From Candidatus Obscuribacter phosphatis (GTDB lineage: Bacteria > Cyanobacteriota > Vampirovibrionia > Obscuribacterales > Obscuribacteraceae), in the NCBI GenBank assembly GCA_001899315.1, contig MOYA01000003.1, positions 492,791-530,801 of the forward strand: a stretch of 38,011 bases of DNA. The letters run 5' to 3'. Below the pieces are notes generated by a model, which made no database searches, was not told the origin of the DNA, and worked only from the letters and a program-made list of their open reading frames with translations. A program made the translations under genes and the position numbers. Position 1 is the first letter of the stretch; every line of letters starts with the position of its first letter. Positions 3,897 to 30,308 of this stretch are shown here, one piece after another.

Positions 3897-5342
3897 TCAA
3901 GCCGCAATAAAATAAAGAGCTGAAACATCCGGGCGCAATTTGCGCAACTGGTCATCTTCAACTGGTCCAAATTCTAGACATGTGTGAATAAGTTCCTGCA
4001 TTCCATTCATTTCAAAACTAACCACTTCAGTCAGATAGCGCTGGGCGAGATACAACTCAAGCCTGCGCCTGCTTATGCCAGCACACATATTTTGCAGTTG
4101 ATTGACAAAGCCAAGAAGCGATAACACCACAGACTTCGAAGAGACGCTGTGCTGCGCACTATTCCTTACGTTGACACTCACCAAAGCTTGAGCACCGCCC
4201 TTGAGTAAGTCTGGATTCTGCTCCAACTCCAAACAGAATTGACATCCCAATATCCTACACATCGCCTCCCCGTCTGAAGCTCCACTAGAATCAAAAGACG
4301 AAAATGCATGAGACCCAAACCCTTCACGGGCCCAATCACTGGCAGAACTTGAGCCAATATTCACCAAACTTGATCTCACATTAGGCCTTTCTCTAGCGGG
4401 AATCAACTCAAATAGACCACCGGGCAAAGCCCTTATCCAGCCAGCGAACTCAAGCATAGTCAAGGCTTGATTTAACCTGGGCACATCAAAACCACTTATC
4501 TCAATCAGCTGATCCAGAGATACTTTTCCCCTCGAAATAACCTCCAAGATTGTTCTCTCGTCTTCGCCAAAACCATCATCATTCGCGCCCGATGATACGC
4601 ACTCGCCTTGAACATTAGGTTCGCGTTCAACCGATGAGTCGCTATCCTCGAACCGACAGCAACATGATGCTGTGCACTCGCCGGTCTGGCAGGCAAGAGG
4701 CTCTTGCTCCTCTGCATTTTCACAAGAACCATTCGCAGAAGCATCACCAGTGGAGCCAGGAGATCTGCGTTTTTGCCAGAACTCATCCTGGGCATCCGCC
4801 TCTTCTAGAGCCGGATGAATAAACTTTGAAGACGCAATACTTCTTTTGACATACAGGTCTATGAAATGTCTAGTTGATACTAGAGCACCACTCTGCCCCC
4901 AGCGGTCTCTTACAACAAAGAGAATAGACTGAAAGACGTTAAATGACGTAGACTTTGCAATACCAATGAAGTCAGCGAACCAGCTAGCGCTAACCACTAC
5001 GCCGCGACTACAAAGCCACATTGCCGCATACCAAGGGCGCAACTTCCGCACCCTCTGAAAAAAGGTCCCGGCTGTCACACGTCCGTCAATAGAGCAATCT
5101 GGACAGTACCATATTCTGTGTCCATCTCTAAATTCCAGATCAACTTTTCCGCATTCCCGGCAAAGTAGCAAACCGGAAGCCTGTAAAGACGAAACCAAGT
5201 CATTCCAACAGTGCTCAGAGCTCGGAAATTCCTTACAAAACTCTACCCACTCGTGCATCACGCGCTCTCTTATGTCTAGCGACTTATGATTTGACATCTT
5301 TATACGATACAAAACTGAAAGGTTATCTTGTGAGACAGACAT
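3897..5342 (-). CDS. IS1595-type zinc ribbon + DprA-like winged-helix protein
   Basis: 481 residues from the ATG at 5340-5342, chosen because AGGAGG lies 9 nt upstream; a TTG at 5402 would add 20 residues without a good site. Residues 61-83 are a CxxC...CxxC zinc ribbon (CREC...CPDC), followed by TAGTFFQ, a tryptophan-containing helix and an HTH (SASWFADFIGIAKSTSFN). This is the order found in the DNA-binding half of IS1595-type transposases. No DDE nuclease domain follows. Instead there is a polar linker with a cysteine cluster (CQTGECTASCCCRF, about 218-231). Then, at about 261-315, comes a winged helix resembling the DprA C-terminal one (DQLIEISGF...ALTMLEFAGWIRALPGGLFEL), and an unassigned helical C-terminus. 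It is probably a domesticated DNA-binding protein; target unknown. Confidence 0.7.
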   Translation of the reverse strand: MSVSQDNLSVLYRIKMSNHKSLDIRERVMHEWVEFCKEFPSSEHCWNDLVSSLQASGLLLCRECGKVDLEFRDGHRIWYCPDCSIDGRVTAGTFFQRVRKLRPWYAAMWLCSRGVVVSASWFADFIGIAKSTSFNVFQSILFVVRDRWGQSGALVSTRHFIDLYVKRSIASSKFIHPALEEADAQDEFWQKRRSPGSTGDASANGSCENAEEQEPLACQTGECTASCCCRFEDSDSSVEREPNVQGECVSSGANDDGFGEDERTILEVISRGKVSLDQLIEISGFDVPRLNQALTMLEFAGWIRALPGGLFELIPARERPNVRSSLVNIGSSSASDWAREGFGSHAFSSFDSSGASDGEAMCRILGCQFCLELEQNPDLLKGGAQALVSVNVRNSAQHSVSSKSVVLSLLGFVNQLQNMCAGISRRRLELYLAQRYLTEVVSFEMNGMQELIHTCLEFGPVEDDQLRKLRPDVSALYFIAA

Positions 5343-5607
5343 ATGGCTCTCCCTCCTCAGGGTCTCATCAACATAAACGTAAAATCCAGACAAAAAGTTC
5401 AAAGTTGCGAAGTTAATTTTGAAGTAAAGGGTTATCGTTTAATTTCCAGAAACAGATCTCACTTAAATCAATAAAGCCACCCAAAGCCACGTATAATCAT
5501 AGGTCCAGCACTCATAGTCTAACCCTCAAGAACATTAACTAACCATTCGCAAAAGAGTTGTATTTAATCCCGCCCGACACGAAGAACAAATTACCAGAGA
5601 GAGAAGA

Positions 5608-9047: not shown

Positions 9048-9256
9048 CGAAATGGGGCATCTACGAAAAAGTGTCGCCAATCTTTCTGTTTGGGCGGCAT
9101 TTTTGAACTTTTTAACTTCCTTAACAGAGCCTAAGCCGCTCTTTCTTTGATCACGTTTTGCACACAAGCAAAATTAATAATGGTCATAGGTAAAGAGCAA
9201 TGGATGTGCGATCAAAAATTCGAAGCTTAACTCGAAAGAATCGAGGAGGTAGATAT

Positions 9257-9793
9257 ATGCAAGAACTCAATCAATCACAGGGCGCGCGCAGAGACCTTTG
9301 GCACAAAGACTACATAAAAGCCGCCCAAAACAATATTTCAGTAACAGATTTGAAAAAACTAGCCAGCCACAACCACTACCGCGTGAGAGCCAGAGTAGCC
9401 GAACATCCACATACACCAATTCAAGTTCTCTACAATCTCGCGCTCGATCCCCACTTTGAAGTGCGTTCCGCCCTCGTGGCTAGAGATTGCATCCCTGCCG
9501 TCATCTTCGAACTTCTTTTGGCTGATGAATGTCCAGAAGTGCGCTACGAACTTGCTGAAAATCCCTATTTGGAAATGAACCGCCTCCTGCGTCTAACCGA
9601 AGACACCAATCCCTATGTCTCCGAGCGCGCTTGGCGAACACTTAATACAATATCTCACAGAAGAAAAAATACGGTATCGGTCGCTAAATCCGTGGTGGCG
9701 GACAAAAAGTGCATGCCGGTCAATAACTGCTCTCCGGAAGAAGACGCTCTAAAGGCAGAGACTGCGATCACTCGCAAATTATTGGCTAGCTAA
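9257..9793 (+). CDS. Leucine-rich repeat variant (LRV)-like protein
   Basis: 178 residues. The start at 9257 is chosen over the in-frame ATG at 9200 because a near-perfect GGAGGT lies 6-7 nt before it. Four consecutive repeats of about 26 residues run from about 30 to 135. Each has the form LxxLAxDxxxxVRxxVAxxxxxPxxVL (for example ALDPHFEVRSALVARDCIP and LADECPEVRYELAENPYLE). This is the pattern of LRV repeats, short two-helix solenoid repeats used for binding. The N-terminal cysteine cluster of the Azotobacter LRV protein is absent. The C-terminal 45 residues are charged. A partner is not evident from the neighbours. The gene is followed by its own terminator, so it is likely monocistronic. 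Confidence 0.75.
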   Translation: MQELNQSQGARRDLWHKDYIKAAQNNISVTDLKKLASHNHYRVRARVAEHPHTPIQVLYNLALDPHFEVRSALVARDCIPAVIFELLLADECPEVRYELAENPYLEMNRLLRLTEDTNPYVSERAWRTLNTISHRRKNTVSVAKSVVADKKCMPVNNCSPEEDALKAETAITRKLLAS

Positions 9794-29177: not shown

Positions 29178-29522
29178 AAAAATCTCCTGTGTGATCACCG
29201 CCACCATTGGTGGACTCCAATGGGCAATGTACCCAGGAAAAGAAAAAACAGAGCACTTTGCAAACCCCGGCGGTTGGCAAGAGAATGCTTCAGAAATTCA
29301 GAGAATGCGGAATGGCAAATCAGTCAGTCAAAAAAAAAGAAATCCCAGGGAATTTCTTTTTTTTGAGTTATGCGTTGACCGAGAACAAGCAAAAACCGAA
29401 TTTAATCTATCCAATTGAACTTTTTGACCGGAAAATCCGTCTTAGAAATATAGCCCGTCGAAAGAGACAGTAACTCTGCCTCGCAGCATTGCCACGCAGA
29501 AACATACGGAGGGAAATCGAAT
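29178..29522. other. Divergent intergenic region with hairpin
   Basis: About 345 bp between the divergent MshEN-TPR gene and the AbiEi-like gene. It holds a strong A/T-flanked hairpin (29331-29364). An 88-codon plus-strand frame (29207-29473) crosses it but has no ribosome site and an unlikely composition. Promoters must lie on both sides, but no clear -35/-10 pair was found. Confidence 0.5.
29331..29364. terminator. Bidirectional terminator-like hairpin
   Basis: A run of eight A then GAAAT (29331-29343) pairs perfectly over 13 bp with ATTTC plus eight T (29352-29364), around an 8-nt CCCAGGGA loop. On both strands the stem ends in a U-run, as in bidirectional intrinsic terminators. The position is odd: it lies upstream of both flanking genes rather than between convergent ends. 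It may terminate a small untranslated transcript or act in a leader. Confidence 0.65.
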
Positions 29523-30308
29523 ATGAAGCCTAACGCTCATCAGAAATCAAGAAAGAAAACCAAAAAGCCCAGCGCCCTTGAATATGTAAAGCGTTATATT
29601 GCCCAGCTACCAAAGAGCTATATATTCACCACAAGAGAGCTACTTCCCCTAGTTAAACGACGCTCAACCCTAGACGTTTATCTCTCTGCAGAAGTCAAAG
29701 AAGATCGCCTTGAACGCCTTGCCAGAGGGGTATTCAGAAAAAGTTCCTTCAAGAACAAGCCAGTCACGGAAGAAAGAATCGCAGCAATCAAGCGCCTGGC
29801 ATTCGCCGGCAAGCTGGCAACTACTCCAAATTCAAGGATAGAACGTGAAGTAGAGAACAGATTGTTTGAATCAGGCTATCCCGACTTCTCGATTCGCAGA
29901 ACCCTTTTCCACACCACAAACTCAGATTGCGGGTTCCAAGCCTATCAGTTTATAAACGGATCTAAAGACTTAGGTTACGGAATTCGTTTGGCAGAAATTG
30001 ATATTTCACCAATCGGAAATCGGAAGATGGCGCTTGGCGAAACAAACGCCGGACGCCAGATGCGCCAATTGTGGCTGCGTGGTGAAGATAGATGCGGCAT
30101 TGAGGACATATTGGAAGTTTGGGCAAACTTGACCAATGCAGAAAAGATGGAAGTAACTGCGCTGAAAAAGTTTATGCCGCAATGGCTGAGTGATCATCTT
30201 CCAGAAGCTCCCAAAGAGGCGCTTTTAATTCTCAGCGACTCCCTGCGGTTGAAGAGAGACGGGAAAGACCATCAATACAAGAGACCAGGTCAAAGAATAC
30301 TAAGGTAG
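29523..30308 (+). CDS. AbiEi/DUF6088-like antitoxin-type protein
   Basis: 261 residues with GGAGGG 9 nt before the ATG. The N-terminal winged helix (YVKRYIAQLPKSYIFTTREL ... LERLARGVFRK) has the arrangement of DUF6088/AbiEi-type antitoxins. The middle part (TPNSRIEREVENRL, then AEIDISPIGNRKMALGE) and the end (ALKKFMPQWLSDHLPE) also fit that family. In type IV systems such proteins repress their operon and counter a nucleotidyltransferase toxin (AbiEii). No such toxin is encoded next to it here: the following gene is on the opposite strand and is an acetyltransferase. It may therefore be a solitary regulator. Family assignment is by pattern only. Confidence 0.55.
   Translation: MKPNAHQKSRKKTKKPSALEYVKRYIAQLPKSYIFTTRELLPLVKRRSTLDVYLSAEVKEDRLERLARGVFRKSSFKNKPVTEERIAAIKRLAFAGKLATTPNSRIEREVENRLFESGYPDFSIRRTLFHTTNSDCGFQAYQFINGSKDLGYGIRLAEIDISPIGNRKMALGETNAGRQMRQLWLRGEDRCGIEDILEVWANLTNAEKMEVTALKKFMPQWLSDHLPEAPKEALLILSDSLRLKRDGKDHQYKRPGQRILR

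Follow-up and report, generated by a model that had tools for sequence, protein, structure and literature searches.

We found that the coding sequence at 3897..5342 (minus strand) of the window, the whole 38,011-nucleotide stretch of Candidatus Obscuribacter phosphatis DNA that was analysed, encodes a 481-residue chimera. Judged from its sequence, the protein is an IS1595 transposase that has lost its DDE core and in which a DprA-type winged helix stands in the core's place, since both of its ends are IS1595-derived and the winged helix lies between them. It belongs to a family of up to 20 genes per genome, of which we counted 218 in all, spread over 38 of the 50 Obscuribacteraceae genomes surveyed, and new here is a predicted ECF-sigma-type promoter shared by the family genes and by genes of DNA uptake and recombination. 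From these sequence comparisons we consider it probable that the family members are catalytically dead, IS1595-derived DNA-binding regulators that act through palindromes, on their own genes or on one another's, as part of a regulon for DNA uptake and recombination that an ECF sigma factor controls.

The chimera gene has an ATG start and a GGAGG-like ribosome site, and its orthologue is full length and 74% identical. All parts of the gene given here are on the minus strand. Residues 22-57 (5172..5279) form an N-terminal helical region, helical in the model and lying mostly within the IS1595 match (residues 28-146 by HHalign). A Zn ribbon, CxxC...CxxC, with the start of TAGTFF, assigned from the alignment and HHalign, occupies residues 58-92 (5067..5171) and is followed by an IS1595-type HTH (residues 93-146, 4905..5066), the part most conserved between orthologues (93% amino acid identity, dN/dS 0.045). 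The ribbon, TAGTFF and HTH recognised in a preliminary description of this DNA are indeed present: the ribbon cysteines are C61-x2-C64 and C80-x2-C83, and among 35-54 relatives C80 and C83 are invariant and C61 and C64 more than 90% conserved. A KRS..Tp..HP..Ee motif (residues 147-182, 4797..4904; R167, P177 and E180 conserved) takes the position at which IS1595 transposases have the start of their first DDE strand, and no DDE match is found there. The linker that follows (4578..4796) is mostly disordered and fast-evolving (low pLDDT, dN/dS 0.50) and holds the Cys-rich stretch described earlier; the stretch is real, with 7 Cys, but it is not conserved as a family feature, being shared only by the 74% identical orthologue (5 Cys). 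The DprA winged helix spans residues 260-309 (4416..4565), and the C-terminal region, residues 396-481 (3900..4157), is homologous to the IS1595 transposase C-terminus by both HHalign and HMMER. An alignment of 35 relatives shows one architecture throughout, consisting of N-terminal helices, a CxxC..CxxC ribbon, TAGTFFhrVRKlRaW, the HTH, KRS..TPa..HP..Ee, the winged helix between two linkers (the first of them variable) and a C-terminus that contains GISRKYLQ.YLa.

The IS1595 ancestry of both ends is supported by profile comparison. Against eight IS1595 transposases, the family profile aligned over residues 28-146 (118 columns) with 99.6% probability and an E-value of 1.3e-24 in HHalign, which bears out the earlier assignment of the N-terminus to the DNA-binding half of these transposases, although the window protein alone does not reach Zn_ribbon_IS1595 (PF12760) in Pfam. 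That assignment had confined the IS1595 part to the N-terminus and missed the C-terminus, which aligned with 95.7% probability (E 1e-8) and a score of 54 against a maximum of 14.9 in 40 column-shuffled controls. Independently of HHalign, HMMER with the family profile returned both stretches, in order, on IS1595 proteins. The region from the HTH to the winged helix gave no IS1595 match in the profile comparison. PF12762 (DDE_Tnp_IS1595) has no match in the window's own genome, and its weak matches in 4 of the 35 relatives (best E 0.11) presumably arise through the C-terminus. Real IS1595 transposases occur in 17 of the 50 Obscuribacteraceae genomes, and there is none in the window's own genome.

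The winged helix is the only domain that the window protein shows above Pfam cut-offs, with 45.5 bits for DprA_WH (PF17782) against a cut-off of 22.9 and an E-value of 7.5e-12. All 35 relatives match this model, and the family winged helix aligns with the DprA winged helices of the same clade at 99.5% probability in HHalign. The DNA_processg_A Rossmann domain (PF02481), present in true dprA, is absent from the window protein and is not among the families listed for the 35 relatives, so the family protein is not a DprA. The AlphaFold model is confident in the ZR-HTH (Zn ribbon and HTH), winged-helix and C-terminal regions, with disordered linkers. The winged helix is a very common fold, and a fold search gave a match for this domain alone (Z 9-10) and barely covered the ZR-HTH and C-terminal parts. 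No RNase H fold appears in the model and no DDE/RNase H domain was found by sequence in Pfam, as the preliminary description had proposed in placing the winged helix where the DDE domain would be. The best reading of the sequences and the predicted structure is that the family members are catalytically dead. Nor did a search for a frameshifted DDE domain in a relative reveal one; the relatives share the DDE-less architecture.

The family has a single origin, with one branch of the tree parting all members placed in it from all IS1595 proteins (support 100/99). The window's own genome (5.49 Mb) holds about 20 family loci, dispersed and mostly single, with 26-37% identity between copies. Among the matches listed from a 386-genome sample of the phylum, in which at most a few candidates were scored per genome, none outside Obscuribacteraceae has the full architecture; the other listed matches are confined to the region in common with DprA or to that in common with IS1595 proteins. 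Nineteen of the loci have orthologues in a second species, each with 6-14 conserved syntenic neighbours, and in this two-species comparison no neighbour family was common to most paralogous loci, nor were near-identical recent copies or variable insertion sites seen. Over 18 orthologue pairs dN/dS is about 0.19 (0.19-0.196), from 0.045 in the HTH to 0.50 in the Cys-holding linker. Family genes are therefore at fixed syntenic loci and under purifying selection, and with about 218 relatives of one architecture the earlier suggestion of a transposase turned host gene has held. At locus L027 (G000:C2, 7704-10076), a masked stretch reading as N interrupts the HTH of one family member, whose orthologue, L089, is intact. 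An origin from phages or plasmids was rejected, as no family match was found in phages and the plasmid matches were to IS1595 transposases only, at the N-terminus; a single scan of IMG/VR with short patterns found nothing.

Words over-represented upstream of the family genes of the genome led to the promoter GAACTTTTT-N12-CGTYT, that is, GAAC-N17-CGTC, a form typical of ECF sigma factors (SigW/SigX/RpoE-type promoters). The de novo search recovered it from 14 of the 20 family upstream regions as against 7 of about 200 background regions, and all 19 family loci checked in the genome carry it. At the chimera gene it lies at 5377..5400 (minus strand; GAACTTTTT-N12-CGT) and is conserved in the orthologue. 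The strict pattern GAACTTTTT-N12-CGT has 48 genomic sites, compared with 2 for a reversed control, and by the next gene these divide into 19 family loci, 12 members of a second winged-helix family and 17 others. The genes at the latter include comEC, comM/yifB, a ComF-like gene (its highest-scoring model is comF, short of the cut-off), radC, dnaE, DUF1800, two Spy-like proteins, and an ECF sigma factor with a zf-HC2 anti-sigma next after it. The promoter of dprA is a one-mismatch version, GAACTTTTT-N12-TGTCT, and at dprA of two other loci a promoter of the GAAC-N17-CGT class was not seen. Family genes adjoin neither dprA nor comEC, the physical neighbours that had been suggested as a check; the link to competence is instead a predicted shared regulon, which gives support to what had been a guess at a competence-linked factor. 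The inclusion of envelope-type genes (Spy-like, DUF1800) indicates that 'competence' may be too narrow a term. In the window, a match to AAAAAGTTCAA at 9103-9113, before a HEAT-repeat open reading frame (9200-9793, plus strand), has no CGT element at the right distance and is probably not a promoter of this class.

The promoter recurs in other genera. A slightly looser form precedes 60 of 71 relatives across genera and was not detected in the remaining 11, and of 30 comEC loci examined, 9 carry the promoter. The genes that it precedes in genus g24 are a family gene, two second-family genes, radC, dnaE, DUF1800, Spy-like genes, priA, recJ and yraN; also under it in this genus (L259, L257, L264) are a PLD-like protein with an HTH and two short, seemingly related proteins without an assigned family. 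Over the 50 genomes there are 883 promoter sites against 155 in controls, and family copy number correlates weakly with promoter count (rho 0.27, p 0.054). Promoters of this class are also present in several genomes that lack the family, and we infer that the regulon probably came first and then recruited the IS1595/DprA_WH family. At L172 (718-2959, minus strand) the ECF sigma factor, zf-HC2 anti-sigma and a Spy-like gene are consecutive genes preceded by the regulon promoter, and this ECF sigma factor is a candidate for the regulon's master regulator.

A second promoter of this type in the window, a strict-pattern site at 29417..29440 (plus strand), precedes a member of the second family, a DUF6088/AbiEi-like winged-helix gene at 29523..30308 (plus strand), of which 12 copies are under the promoter. 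The other copies are at L158, L160, L165, L166, L171, L175, L176, L179 and L182-L184. One second-family relative matches DUF6088 above cut-off, and the second family scores 16.6 bits with the type IV AbiEi antitoxin model NF047376, for which the cut-off is 150. Some of these genes have long palindromes of their own, which look like terminators.

Most genes of the IS1595-derived family have a palindrome upstream of the promoter, with a common core, ACCGATATCGGT, and symmetric arms that vary by gene, for example TGGAAGTGGAACCGAT/ATCGGTTCCACTTCCA. At least 10 paired arm bases are found in 11 of 18 genes of the genome as against 0.3% of shuffles, and in the set of 71 from several genera, 43 have 7 or more paired bases, with up to 24. 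Arm identity is 87% between orthologues and 36% between paralogues. The window gene has a degenerate version, AAACGATAACCCTTT (5426..5441, minus strand), which is kept in the orthologue and centred 33 nt upstream of GAAC, the same distance as in the family; it is weak on its own and recognised by position only. The distance from the palindrome centre to the promoter downstream takes preferred values, and the helical phasing of these distances (R about 0.45 at 11 bp) is only suggestive because the set includes non-independent orthologue pairs. Dozens of further sites in the genome have the core, some of them within open reading frames and others forming tandem arrays, so that its role is not confined to that of an operator for family genes; 27% of 52 such palindromes match a family arm well, compared with 2.7% of shuffles. 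Tandem ACCGATATCGGT-core arrays with a period of 40-57 bp are seen at L025 (272-404), L187 (962-1194), L203 (975-1201) and L215 (3587-3778). Arm similarity is related to protein similarity (Mantel r 0.21, p 0.001), also for the winged helix (p 0.02) and not significantly for the HTH or Zn ribbon, a relation that may reflect joint duplication of gene and promoter. IS1595 ends were rejected as a source of the core, which was not seen in the IS1595 loci tested, where the ends are only loosely delimited.

In the mechanism that we favour, one ECF sigma factor would express all family members along with comEC, comM/yifB, the ComF-like gene, radC, dnaE and dprA, and this predicted co-expression would place the family in a DNA uptake and recombination programme, with a possible effect on transformation. 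Bound as a dimer to the palindrome 30-56 bp before the promoter of the family genes, the protein would exert auto- or cross-regulation. The shared ZR-HTH would read the common core, and the winged helix and/or the C-terminal region would add paralogue-specific contacts to the gene-specific arms. Support for a regulator comes at the sequence level from the two DNA-binding-type domains and the enriched palindromes. More tentatively, the roughly 20 paralogues per genome might make up an address system, in which each one recognises a private palindrome, both at the promoter of its own gene and at matching sites elsewhere, and all are switched on by the ECF sigma factor together with the DNA uptake and recombination genes.

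The main rival, which we regard as rather unlikely, is that these proteins act directly on incoming or recombining DNA as DprA-like accessory or architectural proteins, with the winged helix working as it does in DprA and the palindromes serving as hairpins or landing sites. The same predicted co-regulation, extended by priA and recJ in another genus, would suit such a role, as would the alignment of the family winged helix to the clade's own DprA winged helix, the perfection of some palindromes to 24 bp per arm and the occurrence of core palindromes away from promoters. In Helicobacter pylori, moreover, the C-terminal domain of DprA has a role in the assembly of the nucleoprotein complex (PMC4489622). 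However, bulk DNA processing would hardly account for some 20 divergent paralogues whose upstream palindromes are paralogue-specific, the palindrome centres keep preferred distances from the promoter, and the family has no DprA Rossmann domain. It is also unlikely that the palindromes upstream of the family genes terminate transcription of the gene before them or are unrelated repeats, with only the ECF promoter link being real: A and T tracts flank some of them, those of the second family look like terminators and the core recurs elsewhere in the genome, yet the palindromes are strongly enriched before family genes at preferred promoter distances, and long ones sharing the core also stand between divergent genes (L014, L017, L021, L024, L027), which argues against terminators.

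Two further readings start from the transposase ancestry. Immunity-like repression of IS1595 or other mobile DNA, in the manner of truncated-transposase inhibitors, would agree with the IS1595-derived DNA-binding ends and with a genome that has 20 copies and no IS1595 DDE gene. We consider it very improbable, as IS1595 elements occur in genomes both with and without many family copies, with no apparent trend between copy number and their presence, the IS1595 loci tested have no core palindrome, and the promoter and partner genes point elsewhere. That the genes are transposon copies, either decayed or mobile to this day, that play no part in the host, as ancestry and high copy number might suggest, is scarcely credible in view of their syntenic one-to-one orthologues at fixed loci, strong purifying selection, low inter-copy identity, conserved promoter and lack of a DDE domain in about 218 relatives with the same architecture, and we rejected it.

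Transposases domesticated as gene regulators are well documented for animals and less so for bacteria. Our literature search brought up no paper that treats the bacterial domestication of IS1595 or competence among Obscuribacterales. The Zn ribbon, TAGTxF, HTH and extreme C-terminus of IS1595/ISXO2 transposases (PF12760 and PF12762) are homologous and colinear with the family, which unlike them has the KRS motif, linker and DprA winged helix in place of the DDE core, is not mobile and has an ECF-type promoter. Its winged helix is clearly homologous to that of DprA (PF17782, winged-helix/DML1 domain), from which it differs in lacking the Rossmann domain. Bacterial TldR (PMC13418256) and the metazoan families and ZBED6 (PMC10027918, PMC2780926) are likewise transposon-derived DNA-binding-type proteins kept by a host (or phage) without transposition; the present family, whose regulatory role is predicted, comes from a different transposon superfamily, has no guide RNA, is fused to a DprA domain and has expanded within an ECF regulon to some 20 copies per genome. 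SigW-like ECF sigma/zf-HC2 regulons similarly have a sigma gene with an adjacent anti-sigma and their own GAAC-N17-CGT promoter, whereas the regulon here carries DNA uptake and recombination genes, and two expanded DNA-binding-type families dominate it. The one competence-related paper on an alternative sigma factor that we found concerns sigma-H, not an ECF factor (PMC3364868). If our reading is correct, this is a large, lineage-wide bacterial domestication in which both transposase ends were kept and the catalytic core was swapped for a domain of a DNA uptake protein, and an ECF sigma factor would run DNA uptake genes in non-photosynthetic relatives of the cyanobacteria. The promoters, genes and predicted binding sites named here make the proposal directly testable in laboratory hosts. 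Short stand-alone ZR-HTH proteins of cyanobacteria (L099, L101, L104, L115; 124-138 residues) also share the IS1595 N-terminus without a DDE domain; unlike the family they have neither the winged helix nor the C-terminus, and they form a separate branch of the tree, possibly another domestication.
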